Virus record (IMG/VR): IMGVR_UViG_3300027889_000012
Location: 1 to 23,992 of that record
Source of the DNA: a virus
Direction: 5' to 3' (one strand)
DNA length: 23,992 nt
The translations under genes and the position numbers were made by a program. This document shows, in pieces, positions 12,743-18,867 of this stretch. Below the pieces are notes generated by a model. That model saw nothing but the letters and a program-made list of their open reading frames with translations. It was not told the DNA's origin and did not search any database. Position 1 is the stretch's first letter; each line of letters begins with the position of its first letter.

Positions 12743-13330
12743 ATGAGTCAGGACGCCCTTGCACCGGCAGAGATTGAACCGCTCAATGCGCGGCAGCTTG
12801 CCTTTGCGCGCGAATTGGGCGTGGCTATCGCCAAGGGAGGGCGTGACGACGAACTGATGGCCGCATATGAAGCGGCCGGCTATGCTCCAAATCGCGGCAA
12901 TGCGCGCCGGCTCGCGGCCGATCCGCGGGTGAAGCGCATCGCCGATGAAGCGTGCAAGGAGGCATTGCGCCTCGCAGGGTTGCACATCGGGTATTTGCAG
13001 GCGAAGGCGTTGGAAATCCTCCATCTTTCGCCTATGGTCATCGTGCGAGCGATCAACAAATGCCTGAACGAGGAAGGCCAGTTGCGTAACGACCTGACCG
13101 AAGCGGAGCGCGCGGAACTCGACGCCGCAACTTGGCCTCTGTCCAAGGTGAAAGTCGGCGACCTCAGTATTGAAATCGCTGATAAGAAATCACTTTTGGA
13201 AATGCTTGGGAAGCAACTCGGCCACGGCAAAGACGATCCCGCGAACGTCAACGTGGACGTGACGCTCGAACAGATGATCGCCGCGAGCTATCAGGTGCGA
13301 GAAGAACAGCCGGTCAAGGAGCCCGCGTGA
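12743..13330 (+). CDS. Terminase small subunit-like protein
   Basis: 195 residues. The N-terminal region has the small-terminase style LNARQLAFARELG (14-26), AAYEAAGYAPNRGNARRLAA (40-59), then PRVKRIADEACKEA. This HTH-containing repeat pattern (GYAPNRGNARRLAADPRV) matches Terminase_2-like small subunits, which bind the packaging site on concatemeric DNA. Its place directly upstream of the large subunit supports this. The stop overlaps the next GTG (GTGA). I see no strong ribosome site at ATG 12743. Confidence 0.8.
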   Translation: MSQDALAPAEIEPLNARQLAFARELGVAIAKGGRDDELMAAYEAAGYAPNRGNARRLAADPRVKRIADEACKEALRLAGLHIGYLQAKALEILHLSPMVIVRAINKCLNEEGQLRNDLTEAERAELDAATWPLSKVKVGDLSIEIADKKSLLEMLGKQLGHGKDDPANVNVDVTLEQMIAASYQVREEQPVKEPA

Positions 13331-13431
13331 TTGTGCGGCCCAGCGCAGACGAGGAAGCCGCCGGCCCTGAATGGGCGATCATTATTGCCCTCTCCCTGGC
13401 AATAATCGTTGTCCTGTTGTGGCGTACATGA
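13327..13431 (+). CDS. Tiny single-pass membrane protein between terminase genes
   Basis: 34 residues from GTG 13327: a charged head (MIVRPSADEEAAGPEW) followed by one hydrophobic span at 14-31 (AIIIALSLAIIVVLL) and a short WRT tail. GTGA overlap upstream and ATGA overlap downstream (13428) argue that it is translated as part of a coupled chain. Function unknown. Confidence 0.6.
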   Translation: MIVRPSADEEAAGPEWAIIIALSLAIIVVLLWRT

Positions 13432-14888
13432 GTGTTGCCGCCTCGCGCATAGCGGAGTGGCGCGAGCATCCTGCACAGATGGTGCTCGAACTTTTTGGGA
13501 TTGAGCCCGATCTTTGGCAGAAAGAATTTCTCGAAGCATTTCCCCACAATCAGCGCATGGCGATGCAAGCCTGCAAAGGACCTGGCAAAAGCACGGTCCT
13601 CGCTTGGATCGGCTGGAATTATCTTCTCACCCGATTGCATCCAAAGATCGCCGCAACCTCTATCAGCGCCGCGAACCTTGCAGATGGTCTGTGGACCGAA
13701 ATGGCGAAATGGCAGCAAAAATCGGCGCTGCTTCTGGATCAATTTGTTTGGACCAAAACACGCATCTTCGCGAGACAATCTCCCGAAACATGGTTCATGT
13801 CAGCGCGCGCATTCTCACAAAGCGCAGACGCCAATGCACAAGCGAATACACTTGCGGGCTTTCACTCCGATTATGTTCTATTCCTGATCGATGAATCAGG
13901 ATCGATGCCGCGCGCCGTGATGGTCACTGCGGAAGCTGCGCTTGCCGGCTGCATCGAAGCGCATGTGGTCCAAGCCGGAAATCCCACGTCGCTCGAAGGC
14001 GCGTTGCATCATGCAGCTACAGCAGCGCGTCGGCTGTGGTTCATCGTCGAAATCACTGGCGACCCTGACGATGCAAAGCGCTCGCCGCGTATTCCGGTCG
14101 AGTATGCGAAGGAGCAAATAGAACAATACGGCCGCGATAATCCATGGGTGATCGTCAATATTTTCGGCCGCTTTCCGCCGTCGTCTTTGAATGCGTTGAT
14201 TGGTCCCGACGAAGTGAACGCGGCGATGAAGCGTAACTATCGCGAAATGGAAATAGGCGCTGCGCCGCGTGTCATGGGCATTGACGTGGCGCGGTTTGGC
14301 GATGACGCAAGCGTTATCTTTCGGCGTCAAGGAATCCAGTGCTGGCCGATCCTCAAATACCGCAACATCGATTCGACGCAAGGCGCAGGTACGACCGCGC
14401 GGCAGTGGGACGACTGGGAAGCCGACGCAGCGTTCATCGACAACACCGGCGGATTTGGTTCGGGTTGGATCGACCAGCTAAGTCAACTTGGCAAAAGTCC
14501 TATCGGCGTAGGATTTGCCAATGAGGCGCACAATAAATCGCGCTACTGCAACAAACGCGCGGAAATGTACTTCGAGGCGTGCGAGTGGATCAAACGGGGC
14601 GGGGCTCTGCCACACAGTCCGGAACTTCTTGCCGCGCTCACGCAAACGACGTACACGTTCAAGGGCGACAGGTTCTTGCTTGAGGACAAAGACCAGGTCA
14701 AGATCAAGATCGGCTACTCGCCTGACGAAGCGGACGCTTTCGTTCTGACCTTCGCGGAGCCGGTCACGCTCAACAAAGCTCGGCCGGCAAGACGCATTCA
14801 ACCTGTTTACGAACCCTTCAAAGACCTTGACAGAATCATCGAACGTTCTAACGCTGTTGGGGATTACAATCCGTATCGCGGAGAATGA
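13428..14888 (+). CDS. Terminase large subunit (packaging ATPase/nuclease)
   Basis: 486 residues from ATG 13428. ATPase: Walker A CKGPGKST (49-56), Walker B YVLFLIDES with D155-E156, coupling region NPTSLEGALHH. Nuclease (RNase H-like): D286 in GIDVARFGDD, D338 in FIDNTGG and D437 in DEADAFVL, the three acidic positions expected for headful or specific cleavage. The Walker A lacks the usual first Gly but retains GKST. It powers DNA translocation into the procapsid and cuts the concatemer. Neighbours are the small subunit upstream and the portal gene further right. The open frame extends upstream to 13371, but ATG 13428 with ATGA overlap is preferred. Confidence 0.95.
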   Translation: MSVAASRIAEWREHPAQMVLELFGIEPDLWQKEFLEAFPHNQRMAMQACKGPGKSTVLAWIGWNYLLTRLHPKIAATSISAANLADGLWTEMAKWQQKSALLLDQFVWTKTRIFARQSPETWFMSARAFSQSADANAQANTLAGFHSDYVLFLIDESGSMPRAVMVTAEAALAGCIEAHVVQAGNPTSLEGALHHAATAARRLWFIVEITGDPDDAKRSPRIPVEYAKEQIEQYGRDNPWVIVNIFGRFPPSSLNALIGPDEVNAAMKRNYREMEIGAAPRVMGIDVARFGDDASVIFRRQGIQCWPILKYRNIDSTQGAGTTARQWDDWEADAAFIDNTGGFGSGWIDQLSQLGKSPIGVGFANEAHNKSRYCNKRAEMYFEACEWIKRGGALPHSPELLAALTQTTYTFKGDRFLLEDKDQVKIKIGYSPDEADAFVLTFAEPVTLNKARPARRIQPVYEPFKDLDRIIERSNAVGDYNPYRGE

Positions 14889-15085
14889 CCATGCCGATTG
14901 GGCTGCTGTTCTGGATGTTGATGATTCTATGGCTGATCTTCGGCGGCGTTTGGTGGCGCAATGGAGCCGGTTGGGCCTACGGTTGGGGCGGCAACATGCT
15001 GTTGCTGTTCGTGCTGCTGTTCCTACTTGGGTGGCACGACTTCGGCTTTATCCTGCAGGGCGGTGCAGGTAGTCCCTTTCGATGA
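14885..15085 (+). CDS. Two-span membrane protein
   Basis: 66 residues from ATG 14885 (ATGA overlap with terminase; ATG 14891 also possible). Two hydrophobic spans at about residues 4-21 (PIGLLFWMLMILWLIFGG) and 37-55 (NMLLLFVLLFLLGWHDF). The shape is that of a small holin-like or other phage membrane protein, though there is no lysis enzyme beside it, so I leave function open. Confidence 0.65.
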   Translation: MTMPIGLLFWMLMILWLIFGGVWWRNGAGWAYGWGGNMLLLFVLLFLLGWHDFGFILQGGAGSPFR

Positions 15086-15227
15086 GTCGGACTATCGCGG
15101 CGAATGCGGTATGATCGCGGGACATCAGCGGGACTTGTGCGACCAGTACCAGCGCGACCACGAAAGCGAAATACGGCCTATTCCGCCTGACCGCATGGAA
15201 ACGCCGTCGATTTGTAGGGGATGCTGA
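15063..15227 (+). CDS. Small hypothetical protein with Cys pairs
   Basis: 54 residues from GTG 15063 (alternative ATG 15111). Content: VVPFDESDYRGECGMIAGH, DLCDQYQRDHESEIRP, and a C-terminal CRGC, so four Cys residues with a terminal pair could bind metal. It overlaps the membrane-protein gene by 23 bases in another frame, which lowers confidence in the GTG start. No family recognised. Confidence 0.5.
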   Translation: MQVVPFDESDYRGECGMIAGHQRDLCDQYQRDHESEIRPIPPDRMETPSICRGC

Positions 15228-15476
15228 ATGGACGAACGTGAACGATGCTTAGCGTGGGGCGTCTATATTAGCGCCGCGCTTTACGATGGCGGCGTGTTTG
15301 CCGCAGGTCTTGTAACGCACAATCCGGTCGCTTGGAAACTCGCGATAGCAACAGCGGGCATCGCCTATATCAGCTACGCGGGGCAGATCATGGGGATGCC
15401 GCGGCGAATCGCAATGGCGGTTGTCGTACTGAATTTTGTCCTCGGCGCGTGCGCCGGTATCGCACTCATACCCTGA
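15228..15476 (+). CDS. Three-span membrane protein
   Basis: 82 residues starting directly after the previous stop. Hydrophobic segments at about 10-28, 35-52 (WKLAIATAGIAYISYAGQ) and 60-81 (RIAMAVVVLNFVLGACAGIA). Holin-like topology is possible but not specific. Lies between terminase and portal, an unusual place for a lysis gene. Function unknown. Confidence 0.65.
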   Translation: MDERERCLAWGVYISAALYDGGVFAAGLVTHNPVAWKLAIATAGIAYISYAGQIMGMPRRIAMAVVVLNFVLGACAGIALIP

Positions 15477-15485
15477 GAGGCCAGC

Positions 15486-15713
15486 ATGAGTTTCCTCGGA
15501 GGCGCACCATCCATTGGCGCACCACCTGCGCCGCCACCCCCGCCGCCGAATCCGCCGACGTTTGCAAACTCACAAGCTGTCGGAACTGCGGCATCACAAG
15601 CCGCGGCAGCGGCGGCCGGCGGCGGTTTTGACAACACGATCAAGTCGGGCAGTCAGCAGGGAGCCCCTGCGCCTTCGACCGCGAAAAAGTCTTTGCTCGG
15701 GGGAACGAACTAA
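15486..15713 (+). CDS. Proline/alanine-rich phage structural-type protein
   Basis: 75 residues beginning MSFLGGAPSIGAPPAPPPPP, with an Ala-rich middle, a Gly-rich TIKSGSQQ segment and a C-terminus KKSLLGGTN. Short proteins of this shape (Pro-rich N-terminus, KKSLLG/KKTLLG end) commonly lie directly upstream of podovirus portal genes, as a small virion or assembly protein. A GAGAGG ribosome site precedes ATG 15486. Disordered by composition; function inferred from position only. Confidence 0.7.
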   Translation: MSFLGGAPSIGAPPAPPPPPPNPPTFANSQAVGTAASQAAAAAAGGGFDNTIKSGSQQGAPAPSTAKKSLLGGTN

Positions 15714-15988
15714 TGCCGCTCGATATCTACGATATTCGCGACAAGTGCGAAGTGCTGCACGCGAATGAGATTGCGGCTGGCGAAGCACAATGCCACGCGG
15801 ATAACATCGACTATCTCCCGTCGCTCGAACCGGGCGGTCCTGTGATTCAGCTGGCGACGTTCGTTGCGGCGCTCAAAGCCCGATGGGAACGCGCGTGCGC
15901 GACGGCGCGAGCGATCAAGGCGATGCAGGCCGGTTATTGCAGCGTGTCGCCGGTTGGGTCGGCGCCGACTAGTGACGCGAGGCATTGA
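15713..15988 (+). CDS. Hypothetical protein
   Basis: 91 residues from ATG 15713 (TAATG overlap with the previous stop). Content: DIYDIRDKCEVLHANEIAAG, then IQLATFVAALKARWERACAT, mostly helical. No family recognised. Ends one base before the GTG of the next membrane protein. Confidence 0.6.
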   Translation: MPLDIYDIRDKCEVLHANEIAAGEAQCHADNIDYLPSLEPGGPVIQLATFVAALKARWERACATARAIKAMQAGYCSVSPVGSAPTSDARH

Positions 15989-16096
15989 GTGACTGAGGAA
16001 ACACTTCAATACGTAATTCTCGGCCTCATATTTGGCATAGGCATTTTTGGCATCGCTCTGTTTGCATGGGTGCAATATAAAAATGCTCGCACCTAA
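15989..16096 (+). CDS. Tiny single-pass membrane protein overlapping the portal gene
   Basis: 35 residues from GTG 15989, one Gly/Ile-rich hydrophobic span at 7-28 (QYVILGLIFGIGIFGIALFA) and a short basic tail. Its end overlaps the portal start (16083) by 14 bases. Similar in shape to the 34-residue protein between the terminase genes. Function unknown. Confidence 0.55.
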   Translation: MTEETLQYVILGLIFGIGIFGIALFAWVQYKNART

Positions 16097-17912
16097 CAAC
16101 GTCGCACCCTACGAACTCATGTCGCCGACGCTGCTTGCGCAGCAGCCAATCGACGCGCCGAAACGCGACGAACGCAACGACAAGAACTGGTCGGTTTATT
16201 TCACGTATCTGGAATCGCGGATTGGCTCGCTTCGATCATGGCGATGGTCGTGGTGGGCGTATTGGGCTGTGCTCGCGGCGTTTTTCATGGCGCGGCGTTA
16301 TATTTTCCTAGTAGTCGCAAATAAAATGTGGAGAGGAAGCCCTATCAACAATGCGATCATGGATACGACTGCGCAAAAGTCGGTTGGCACTTGTTCTGCC
16401 GGCATGTGGAACGGCCTCACGCCGTCGTCGCGCCCGTGGTTCGACATGGGCATCGCGCTACCGTGGATAACACTCGATCCGGACGGAAAAGCGTGGCTCG
16501 AAGATACCGGCCAGCGCGTCAAAACTGTGCTATCGCAATCCAATTTCTACACGACTATGCACCAAGCTTTTCAGGATTTGACCGTGTTTGGCACTGCACC
16601 AATCCTGATTTACGAGGATGTGGAAGATGTGGCGCGGTTCTATCTCCCATGTGCGGGCGAATATTATTTGGCGAATGGCGGGCGATTGGCTATCAATACG
16701 ATGGCGCGAGAATTTACGCTCAACGTGCAACAGATTGTGGATATGTTCCAAATCAAGAACTGCCCCGCTGAAATCGTCACACATTGGCAGAACGGCGGAA
16801 CGAATCTAGATCGCGAATACATTGTTGGGCACTTGATCGAGCCAAACTTTGCGCTTGACGGTCGCGGCGCAAGGACAGGTGAAAAAATACGATTGGTCCC
16901 GGAAGGCTTCGCTTGGCGCGAGATTTTCTGGCTCAAGGGCACCAAGACTGCGCGACCGTTAAGCGTGAAGGGATTCCGTATTCAGCCGTTCGCCGCGTTA
17001 CGCTGTTATTTGGTTGCCAATGACGCTTATGGCCGGTCGTTCTGCATGGACGCGCTCGGCGACAACAAGCAGGTCCAGACCGAAACGCTGCGCAAGGGTG
17101 AATTTTTGGAGAAGGGCGTGCGTCCGCCGATGGGCGCCGACCCGGAGCTTAAGAACGAGCCGGCTTCCACTATGCCGTCGATGATTACCTATACGAACAC
17201 GTCGGGCGGCAAGAAAGGCTTTTGGCCGCTGTTCGAAGTTAATCCGGCGTGGCTCACTGCAATCACGGCGGATATCGCCCAAGTGAATGCTCGGATCGAA
17301 AAATGCTTATTCGTAGATACGTTTATGGCAATCACGCGGATGGCTGGCGTACAGCCGCGCAATGAACTGGAACTGACGAAACGCGACCTTGAACGTTTGC
17401 AGGAATTGGGACCTGTCGTTGACCTGATAGAAAAAGAACTCGATGTTATCATAATGAGGGTCTTGGATATTCTCGAACGTCGCCGCATGTTGTTGCCGAA
17501 ACCAAAATCTCTTGCGGGTATTCCATTGAAAATTACTTATGTCTCCATCATGCGAATGGCACAGCGTTCGTCTGAATACGTGGGTATGAAAGATTTTCTG
17601 ACCACAATGGGTGGTCTATCAAGTGCGGCTAAAGCCGCAGGCGTTCCAGACCCGCTGCGGACCGTCAATCTTGATAAGACCACCACGAAACTCGCCGATG
17701 TTACGAACTTTCCTCCGGAATTGCTGTTCACCCCGCAGGAAGTCGCGGCGCACGATCAGGTTCGAGCCAAGGCGATGCAGGCGCAGCAAGGACCACAACA
17801 GGCGATGGCCGCGGTCGATGCCGCTAAGACGTTGGCGGAGACGCCGATGGGCGGGAATACGGCTCTGAGTGCGATCACGGGGCAAGGTGGTGGTGGAGCG
17901 CCCGCGCCATGA
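16083..17912 (+). CDS. Portal / head-to-tail connector protein (podovirus type)
   Basis: 609 residues from ATG 16083. The sequence pattern matches the Head-tail_con family: WWAYWAVLAAFFMARRYIF (61-79), NAIMDTTAQKSVGTCSAG, then GLTPSSRPWFDMGI, and further GRSFCMDALGD, ETLRKGEFLEKGVRPP, the alpha-helical crown and a C-terminus ending in Gly-rich GQGGGGAPAP. The WWAYW segment is hydrophobic but is a family feature, not a membrane span. The protein forms the dodecameric vertex through which DNA is packaged and is the connector for a short tail. The frame is open upstream to GTG 16047, giving 12 extra residues of low quality. Confidence 0.92.
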   Translation: MLAPNNVAPYELMSPTLLAQQPIDAPKRDERNDKNWSVYFTYLESRIGSLRSWRWSWWAYWAVLAAFFMARRYIFLVVANKMWRGSPINNAIMDTTAQKSVGTCSAGMWNGLTPSSRPWFDMGIALPWITLDPDGKAWLEDTGQRVKTVLSQSNFYTTMHQAFQDLTVFGTAPILIYEDVEDVARFYLPCAGEYYLANGGRLAINTMAREFTLNVQQIVDMFQIKNCPAEIVTHWQNGGTNLDREYIVGHLIEPNFALDGRGARTGEKIRLVPEGFAWREIFWLKGTKTARPLSVKGFRIQPFAALRCYLVANDAYGRSFCMDALGDNKQVQTETLRKGEFLEKGVRPPMGADPELKNEPASTMPSMITYTNTSGGKKGFWPLFEVNPAWLTAITADIAQVNARIEKCLFVDTFMAITRMAGVQPRNELELTKRDLERLQELGPVVDLIEKELDVIIMRVLDILERRRMLLPKPKSLAGIPLKITYVSIMRMAQRSSEYVGMKDFLTTMGGLSSAAKAAGVPDPLRTVNLDKTTTKLADVTNFPPELLFTPQEVAAHDQVRAKAMQAQQGPQQAMAAVDAAKTLAETPMGGNTALSAITGQGGGGAPAP

Positions 17913-18103
17913 GCGTTAAGATCGTTGGATATGCAAAAGGCGACGTGCGCGAATTGGTGCCAAAGCATCAGAACGGCGAAGGCGTCTGCGATTGGCGGGG
18001 TTGTTCTAGCCCTGCGGTTTATACAACGCTCATGGGGCTTACCTTTTGCCTACATCACTTTTCAGAGTATTATTTTGCCGATGATGGTGGGGACCACGAA
18101 TGA
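17909..18103 (+). CDS. Small zinc-type hypothetical protein
   Basis: 64 residues from ATG 17909 (ATGA overlap with the portal stop). KIVGYAKGDVRELVPKHQNG then CDWRGCSSPAVYTT and LTFCLHHFSEYY, giving two C-x4-C and CxHH sets that could coordinate zinc. Short C4/H-rich proteins like this occur after phage portal genes without known role. Ends overlapping the next ATG. Confidence 0.6.
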   Translation: MSVKIVGYAKGDVRELVPKHQNGEGVCDWRGCSSPAVYTTLMGLTFCLHHFSEYYFADDGGDHE

Positions 18104-18357
18104 CCGAACTCGCCGCCCACGAACCGTCGCGCACCAAGGCGAAAAAGAACCCCGACGATTGGCTTACGCGCAAGGAAGCCGTCGTTTATCTCGAAAGCAT
18201 CGGGTGTCCTATTAGCAAGCGCGCGCTTGAAAAAAGGGCTTCAAACAACAATGCGGGTCGCGGTCCAGCCTTCACGCGCGTCGGATGGCGAACAGTCAAA
18301 TATCAACGGCGCGATCTCGACGCCTGGGCGTACAAGGAGACGACGCGATGTGGGTAG
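18100..18357 (+). CDS. Excisionase-like/HTH DNA-binding protein within the structural operon
   Basis: 85 residues from ATG 18100 (ATGA overlap). WLTRKEAVVYLESIGCPISK (21-40) is a helix-turn-helix of the AlpA/excisionase (winged, HTH_17) type, and the second half (FTRVGWRTVKYQRRDLDAW) has the wing and RDLDAW ending common in the family. Such proteins normally regulate or assist recombination. Here it is located between portal and scaffold genes, which suggests it is a late-acting regulator or was acquired from elsewhere. Role unproven. Confidence 0.72.
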   Translation: MTELAAHEPSRTKAKKNPDDWLTRKEAVVYLESIGCPISKRALEKRASNNNAGRGPAFTRVGWRTVKYQRRDLDAWAYKETTRCG

Positions 18358-18521
18358 AACTCAATCAGAGCGAGTGTCACTACATCGTGACGACGCTTGA
18401 GGATTCACTGTACGGCTGCGTGTTTCAACAAACGCGCGACGATATCCGCTCTCTCATCGAAAAGATTCAACCGGGAATTCTTAGCAAGGAGTATGCGCAA
18501 TGTGGCTCAACATCGGCATAG
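18348..18521 (+). CDS. Small hypothetical protein
   Basis: 57 residues from ATG 18348, overlapping the end of the HTH gene by 10 bases. Content: MWVELNQSECHYIVTTLEDS then CVFQQTRDDIRSLIEKIQPG. A helical, acidic peptide ending in AQCGSTSA. The downstream gene starts inside its end (18500). No family recognised. Confidence 0.55.
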   Translation: MWVELNQSECHYIVTTLEDSLYGCVFQQTRDDIRSLIEKIQPGILSKEYAQCGSTSA

Positions 18522-18622
18522 GGTTTGTTTGTTTCTGCGTGGGCTATTACTTGGGCGGGCAGCGGTTGCGCGAGTTGCGTAAAGAACTTCACGACAAACT
18601 CGGCTATGGATATCTCGTGTGA
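18500..18622 (+). CDS. Tiny single-pass membrane protein
   Basis: 40 residues from ATG 18500 with AAGGAG 8 bases upstream. One hydrophobic span at 2-18 (WLNIGIGFVCFCVGYYL) followed by a basic helix (GGQRLRELRKELHDKL). N-in or signal-anchor topology possible. The strong ribosome site supports expression. Stop overlaps the next GTG. Confidence 0.62.
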   Translation: MWLNIGIGFVCFCVGYYLGGQRLRELRKELHDKLGYGYLV

Positions 18623-18867
18623 TCCGCGTTCTTTGGTGTGTGTGGAACGCACCCCATGCGGGCTGCGGCGATCTTCTTTGGGTGTCCGACCTTTACGATT
18701 ACGCGACGGGGTTTCTCGGGCTCGGCGTCATGGCACTCTACGTTGTTCTGATCGCGGTCGATGAATGGCGCAAAGGGATTCGAGAGTATGGCTATGCTGC
18801 ACTGGTCGCGTGTACTTTGGTGCTGATCGTTTTGGTTGCGGGCTTCTTGCTGCCGACGATTGAGTGA
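18619..18867 (+). CDS. Two-span membrane protein
   Basis: 82 residues from GTG 18619 (GTGA overlap). Spans at about residues 30-47 (FLGLGVMALYVVLIAV) and 58-79 (GYAALVACTLVLIVLVAGFL), with a charged connecting loop (DEWRKGIREY). This is the last gene before the 205-base gap and is holin-like in shape, but no lysis genes are beside it. Function unknown. Confidence 0.65.
   Translation: MIRVLWCVWNAPHAGCGDLLWVSDLYDYATGFLGLGVMALYVVLIAVDEWRKGIREYGYAALVACTLVLIVLVAGFLLPTIE

Follow-up and report, generated by a model that had tools for sequence, protein, structure and literature searches.

A predicted frameshift that would add a cysteine- and proline-rich tail to tm66, a small phage membrane protein possibly linked to lysis

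Frameshifted extensions, holins and spanins

The established cases of frameshifting in phages affect proteins of the head and the tail. The present analysis concerns a predicted frameshift site of a different setting, at the end of a gene for a small membrane protein (tm66), and the cysteine- and proline-rich tail that it would add. Both lie in IMG/VR record IMGVR_UViG_3300027889_000012, whose positions 1 to 23,992 were analysed as one stretch, referred to as the window, which carries an epsilon15-type late cassette. Among the closest described cases is Listeria phage PSA, in which +1 frameshifts of cps and tsh at the proline codons CCC_UGA and CCC_UCC, near the 3' end, give rise to C-terminal extensions; for similar capsid or tail extensions in A118, A500, T3 and A2, relatives use either +1 or -1 shifts (PMC5009743). 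The predicted event in tm66 is alike in being located at the 3' end, in adding a C-terminal extension and in proceeding by +1 or -1 in relatives, but the described examples are structural proteins, whereas tm66 is a small membrane protein with a proline- and cysteine-containing tail.

With regard to the site itself, the closest counterpart is the influenza A virus cassette known by the name of PA-X, which directs a +1 shift. Its sequence, UCC_UUU_CGU, is given in the same article, as is the heptamer G GGA AAG, which is highly shift-prone in E. coli (PMC5009743). The cassette matches TCC TTT CGT, found before the stop codon in three near-identical loci of the present collection (L242, L249 and L253), and the CCC TTT CGA of the window is similar; gene and virus are unrelated, and only the site is alike.

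Two kinds of lysis protein invite comparison. The lambda proteins S105 and S107, holin and antiholin, are two forms of one small holin gene produced by dual starts, and together they tune lysis; these forms differ at the N terminus through start choice, whereas the proposed forms of tm66 would differ at the C terminus through frameshifting. Among the spanins, Rz1 is proline-rich. In two-component spanins (Rz/Rz1, T4 PseT.3/PseT.2), the o-spanin may be encoded in the +1 or the -1 frame relative to the i-spanin gene, with periplasmic cysteines and intermolecular disulphides as common features (PMC6139136). The window differs in that no lipobox, the lipoprotein signal of an o-spanin, was seen by eye in its tail frame and no coiled-coil i-spanin was seen; moreover, its tail is attached to a protein with two predicted transmembrane helices. 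Among the titles and abstracts listed on frameshifting in holins, antiholins, lysis or membrane proteins, nothing matched, and no occurrence of the peptide PPSICRGC was found in the literature, most subscription papers being outside the scope of both searches. If true, a class of frameshifts in small membrane proteins beside endolysins would be a second route, besides dual starts, by which one gene could supply both a holin and its regulator; it would also give the UUU-C site a counterpart in bacterial viruses and reveal a tail module that annotation can overlook because the tail often has no start codon.

A frameshift site at the end of tm66

Taken as a whole, the explanation that we lean towards is that tm66 is a lysis-associated inner-membrane protein made in two forms by programmed frameshifting. 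Its components differ in strength: judged from sequence patterns, a programmed frameshift at tm66 is very probable, a function as a holin-like lysis factor could go either way, and opposing roles of the two forms are a guess by analogy. Most ribosomes would stop at the TGA at 15083-15085 and yield a protein of 64 amino acids (aa) with two transmembrane helices, and some would slip +1 on TTT-C directly before this stop and add 48 more residues, rich in proline and cysteine and ending CRGC. The tail would face the periplasm and be able to form disulphides. Because endolysins are neighbours in relatives, the two forms would probably serve to time lysis or to connect the membrane lesion with the outer layers, like holin/antiholin pairs or spanins.

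In the window, the tail occupies the +1 frame between the tm66 stop (15085) and the start of the next gene, tm82a (15228), and ends IPPDRMETPSICRGC*; the predicted fusion (14891-15227) comprises 111 aa. A narrow pattern for such tail ends, applied to all loci collected by then, returned 17 rows, duplicates included, all of which adjoin tm66. The ending PF[HR]* is shared by 19 of 72 tm66 sequences (from the window and 71 loci), and removal of L090, which is the same as L089, leaves 18 distinct loci with the window included. The phase of the slippery site matches the frame of the tail in all 18, and in 14 of 14 when only tails ending C..C* are considered; for L092, L100, L104 and L115, the tail frame was assigned by similarity to other tails of the TDA group (L087, L092, L095, L100, L104, L115, L121). 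CCC TTT C is present in all 11 distinct loci of the +1 type, and C CCT TTT or C CCT TTC in all seven of the -1 type; in the control, 45 other Pro-Phe pairs from long open reading frames (ORFs) of the same 18 loci, CCC TTT C and C CCT before Phe occur twice each. One codon past the site, a zero-frame stop follows in 18/18 loci, with TGA, TAG and TAA all in use. That sequencing or assembly errors have split one long gene is hardly credible in view of this regular stop, of the many separate assemblies and of the agreement of both directions with the phase of the site, even though most loci are metagenome contigs and the near-identical L237 and L255 differ in tail frame (+1 in one, -1 in the other), through either an indel or an assembly error.

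Constraint on the tail is most apparent in the IPPD group (seven loci), where the same peptide is reached by +1 and -1 loci. Across the last 15 tail codons, 5, 4 and 15 columns are variable at codon positions 1, 2 and 3, respectively, and the summed synonymous (pS) and non-synonymous (pN) differences of the tail are 0.69 and 0.21, a pattern that clearly shows selection at the protein level.

The tail beyond tm66

Three scans with tail DNA yielded 71 newly numbered loci (L192-L262), one of which, L197, is the same record as L121. In 64 of them, the tail end is preceded, at ~30-150 nucleotides (nt), by the end of a hydrophobic ORF in a different frame. Seven fail the automatic criterion for this ORF: L243 and L247 are cut by the contig edge, and L198, L210, L233, L246 and L248, in which a hydrophobic ORF is visible by eye, were left out of the counts. 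Dereplication at 95% reduces the 64 to 52 loci, 47 with the tail in +1 and five in -1. TTT-C or TTT-T is found in the last five codons of 39 of the 47 distinct +1 loci (31 TTT-C, 8 TTT-T), and a -1 heptamer in three of the five distinct -1 loci (G GGA AAG in two, C CCT TTT in one); the control of 481 long ORFs gave 12 TTT-C and 9 TTT-T. L221 reads TCC TTT CGC and L213 TCC TTT CGA.

The batches can be viewed separately. The first contained a hydrophobic ORF in 36 of 38 loci, with 35 tails in +1 (22 TTT-C, 3 TTT-T, 10 neither) and a lone -1 locus, L209, which is a tm66 member with C CCT TTT. For the last scan, the prediction of a +1 tail had been set beforehand: 28 of the 33 new loci have a hydrophobic ORF, the tail is in +1 in 22 of these 28, and TTT-C/T is present in 20 of these 22.

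Single linkage of BLAST matches divides the 64 transmembrane ORFs in front of the tail into groups of 54, 6, 3 and 1, of which the largest may be over-merged, so that its members may or may not be related. In L248, the tail forms the end of an ORF that carries a lipoprotein-type signal (LLLAGC) and overlaps the end of a tm66-like ORF; a lipoprotein pattern scan of L192-L262 gave four matches, convincing in L248 only. Blastn of two tail loci returned one 42-bp match for one and no match for the other. A tentative extension, for which we have less confidence than for the events at tm66, is that a modular Pro/Cys tail (..PPPPPSICRGC) is common to several kinds of lysis-associated membrane protein and is added mainly by frameshifting (+1 on UUU-C/U; -1 on CCCUUU or GGGAAAG). 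Lysis time would then be set by the slip rate, through the proportions of two holin forms, and the tail would serve as a transferable periplasmic module, one that a lipoprotein can carry as well (L248).

Several observations weigh against programmed frameshifting as the source of the tail. No recognised site is present in 8/47 distinct +1 and 2/5 distinct -1 tail loci. Contrary to the prediction, six of the 28 last-scan loci have the tail in -1, none of them with C CCT TTY; L240 and the near-identical L241/L254 (two distinct loci) carry G GGA AAG, which was noticed afterwards, and L230, L252 and L255 are without any -1 site. Tails of the TDA group are barely constrained at the protein level (pS 0.56, pN 0.49), and 4 of the 18 PF-tailed loci are without the C..C* end. 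RNA structure after the site was not found in minimum-energy folds of 65 nt from the 18 loci (z -1.4 to 1.7), a method that does not cover pseudoknots; a stimulatory RNA structure is not required at every known frameshift site.

Further points concern start codons, and they bear on an alternative without any frameshift, in which re-initiation near the tm66 stop would allow the tail to be translated as a tiny gene of its own. The tail frame of the window contains start codons, such that separate translation is possible there; an ATG for the tail overlaps the tm66 stop in L101 and L131 and, apparently, the membrane-ORF stop in L230; and in L200 and its three duplicates (L223, L225, L227) the +1 frame is not open where the membrane ORF ends, with an ATG after this point. 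Re-initiation is nevertheless unlikely, given that the tail frame has no ATG, GTG or TTG back to the upstream stop in three of the 18 tm66 loci (L093, L099, L106), that such codons are likewise missing in 7/36 first-batch and 11/28 last-scan tail loci, and that slippery sites of the matching direction far exceed the control.

The tm66 family and neighbouring lysis genes

Homologues of tm66 were found in 71 other loci of viral_contigs (near-duplicates included; stretches of up to 4 kb on each side), four of which also match the window portal. In relatives the protein starts MPIG, in most cases behind a purine-rich ribosome-binding sequence, so that the start is better placed at 14891 than at 14885. 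The ATGA overlap with the terminase large subunit gene (terL) at 14885 thus becomes doubtful, as the MPIG ATG lies two bases past the terL stop. The AlphaFold model of tm66 consists of two helices (residues 3-24 and 29-55; mean predicted local distance difference test score, pLDDT, 71). Because the inter-helix loop is positively charged across the family (61 K/R against 7 D/E in 71 proteins, compared with 48 against 63 in the tail), the loop is probably inside and both termini are probably periplasmic.

As a small protein with two predicted transmembrane helices, tm66 shows the holin trait of one or more such helices. A holin family match was not obtained: 21 members had no PHROGs match at E 0.1, and the Pfam family Phage_holin_2 reached E 0.42 only. 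More generally, the transmembrane proteins examined were without a PHROGs or Pfam match above cut-off, and tblastn of tm66, tm82a, the phrog_831 protein and two other transmembrane proteins against GenBank phages gave no match in a search whose low-complexity filter may mask such proteins.

The link to lysis comes from gene neighbourhood. Whole-record endolysin searches took in 50 of the 71 tm66 records and found GH24 in six, M15_4 in seven, GH108 in eight and Amidase_2 in one, there inside a 1248-aa frame; GH19 was found in none of the 50, with its control silent as well. When only separate endolysin-sized frames are taken (17 records, related ones included, positions worked out by hand from tables), in 11 the endolysin is encoded on the same strand no more than 3.1 kb upstream, against 0.58 expected at random; in G001, it would be close to tm66 if the record were circular. 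The tail loci, searched with three queries taken from tm66 loci, have an endolysin in 16 of 64, always on the same strand and in 15 cases 0.3-2.9 kb upstream, where a rough estimate for loci of ~2-15 kb predicts ~3 of 16; the endolysin of L121/L197 also falls within the 11 of 17. The initial annotation had set a holin aside; for tm66, a holin-type reading is now the better supported, because the gene is often directly downstream of an endolysin in other phages.

The lysis link has its own weaknesses. The endolysin families were picked after the neighbours had been seen, the 3.1-kb limit was set after the distances had been seen, and related records were retained; a separate endolysin frame was missing from 33 of the 50 records, and in the epsilon15-like G015 tm66 is distant from the endolysin. 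Within the 24-kb window, which had no endolysin-model scan, none was recognised, as noted initially, because the sequence stops 6 kb past the portal gene. Among epsilon15-like records, GH108 was found in 8 of 34, 14-37 kb from the portal (distances worked out by hand); no endolysin is therefore expected near the portal, and tm66 of the window would act far from its endolysin gene. Some known holin genes also act at a distance from the endolysin gene.

An alternative without lysis, in which tm66 and its tail would be a moron-like envelope cargo gene, for superinfection exclusion or another purpose, appears rather unlikely. It would accommodate the patchy distribution of tm66, the distance in G015 and the orientation of the homologues in L002, L003 and L023, which lie on the minus strand, opposite to terL, between terL and the phrog_831 gene. 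On the other hand, tm66 or the tail is found directly behind endolysins on the same strand in other phages, and a prophage-borne tm66 was not encountered: the 43 pattern matches to the motif GWHDFGF in 84,980 bacterial and archaeal species genomes included no confirmed relative. Lysis-associated tm66 in two forms remains the explanation that we favour.

Other small genes accompany tm66 in some loci. An 89-aa protein with one hydrophobic stretch (..NSRKIQEVHLSINSRMDQLL..) is encoded directly after tm66 in L111 (4149-4415) and recurs after it in L112, L113 and L122, as well as upstream of it in L100; it had no PHROGs or Pfam match. A small lipoprotein-like ORF with C-x10-C or C-x12-C is located in the slot between terL and phrog_831 in L004 (553-942) and directly behind tm66 in L102.

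The late cassette and its other small membrane genes

The cassette of the window has the order terS (phrog_51), terL (phrog_2), phrog_831 protein, portal (phrog_332), scaffold (phrog_458) and major head protein (phrog_212); terL, portal, scaffold and capsid in this order correspond to the late cassette of an epsilon15-like podovirus. The portal start was set from relatives. The closest portals, in L002 and L003, are 68% identical and most others among the best 80 loci 50-62%; a scan of genome_contigs with the window portal gave no relative. Coordinates are compiled in Table 1.

Table 1. Positions of the genes, ORFs and frameshift elements in the window
Feature	Position	Strand	Basis and remarks
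34-aa single-transmembrane ORF between terS and terL	13327..13431	+	four-base overlap on each side; no relative found
Terminase large subunit (terL)	13428..14888	+	phrog_2, 2.5e-19
tm66 zero-frame product, 64 aa, two predicted transmembrane helices	14891..15085	+	71 related loci; common MPIG start; AlphaFold
Predicted +1 frameshift site CCC TTT CGA TGA	15074..15085	+	slip from TTT to TTC at 15077-15080
Predicted +1-frame Cys/Pro-rich tail, DESDYRGEC...RPIPPDRMETPSICRGC	15081..15227	+	stop 15225-15227; peptide kept in other loci under heavy silent change
tm82a, 82 aa, three predicted transmembrane helices	15228..15476	+	profile search; model mean pLDDT 93.9
Small Pro/Ala-rich protein, phrog_831	15486..15713	+	phrog_831, E 0.00098; match in most portal-bearing loci
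35-aa single-transmembrane ORF before portal	15989..16096	+	sequence only
Portal (head-tail adaptor), epsilon15 type	16083..17912	+	phrog_332, 9.5e-91; tblastn against epsilon15 portal 31.5%
40-aa weakly hydrophobic ORF	18500..18622	+	same position as 38-aa MW.. ORFs in L002/L003; no sequence match
tm82b, 82 aa, two hydrophobic stretches	18619..18867	+	relatives in L002 and L003 only (L086 is the L003 contig)

The initial annotation had described six small hydrophobic ORFs as a chain of membrane genes threaded through the packaging and portal genes and acting in assembly or at the envelope. All six exist, but only five are clearly hydrophobic by a Kyte-Doolittle 19-residue mean of at least 1.6, the sixth (18500-18622) reaching 1.52. 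Five such ORFs lie on the plus strand and none on the minus strand in the 2,349 bp of slots that separate the large late genes; dinucleotide shuffles gave a mean of 0.55 on the plus strand and a maximum of 4, and none of 300 reached five. Chance was rejected on this basis, and the impression of several small membrane genes in this region is borne out. The proposed four-base couplings apply to 13327-13431 (GTGA with terS, ATGA with terL) and to 18619 (GTGA with 18500-18622); the ORF at 15989 adjoins another at 15713-15988 without overlap and overlaps the portal gene by 14 bases.

A single chain does not emerge from the comparison. The members do not co-occur, and the idea of one conserved chain was rejected, their distributions across loci being independent. 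Frames are conserved in relatives for tm66, tm82a and tm82b (pS 0.61 and pN 0.15 for tm82b between the window and L003). Neither tblastn on the collected loci nor PHROGs and Pfam gave a relative for 13327, 15989 and 18500, which are placed by position only. Similar slots in L002 and L003 contain other small transmembrane ORFs, with other ORFs in the slot of 15989 and, in L003, a different 63-aa ORF between terS and terL. Apart from tm66, whose +1-frame tail had been overlooked, the small transmembrane ORFs would thus be separate genes that occupy slots of the same late region.

Of these, tm82a is the most constant in position. An iterated profile search of 156 sequences (the window, L002-L085 and L087-L157) identified 17 ORFs, the window and 16 others, three of them identical. 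All 17 are on the plus strand upstream of the portal gene, and the ORF is between terL and portal in all 12 loci whose stretch includes terL. The model is a confident three-helix bundle; a fold search gave no significant match (best BFVD template-modelling score 0.86, but E 0.67; none in the PDB). Its constant position would fit a head- or envelope-related role. For a joint function of the small transmembrane ORFs in head assembly at the membrane, as suggested initially, this position is the main argument, but with independently distributed members, three of them without a relative found, such a function is improbable.

Three further observations concern the cassette and its relatives. An 85-aa protein at 18100-18357 (+), with a very weak match to phrog_66 (excisionase/regulator, E 0.097), is also on the plus strand in L002/L003, and homologues in 23 other loci (near-duplicates included) are on the minus strand between the portal gene and a 161-aa gene. 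The 8-kb locus L118 (239-4192) encodes a relative of the window methyltransferase (79% over 86 aa) and of terS (60%) near a tailed tm66, with terL and portal unmatched, an instance of mosaic exchange. In L005 (2939-5443), terL is a single frame of 834 aa, more than 300 codons longer than terL of the window, with an insertion directly after the ATP-binding region that, by eye, resembles an intein.

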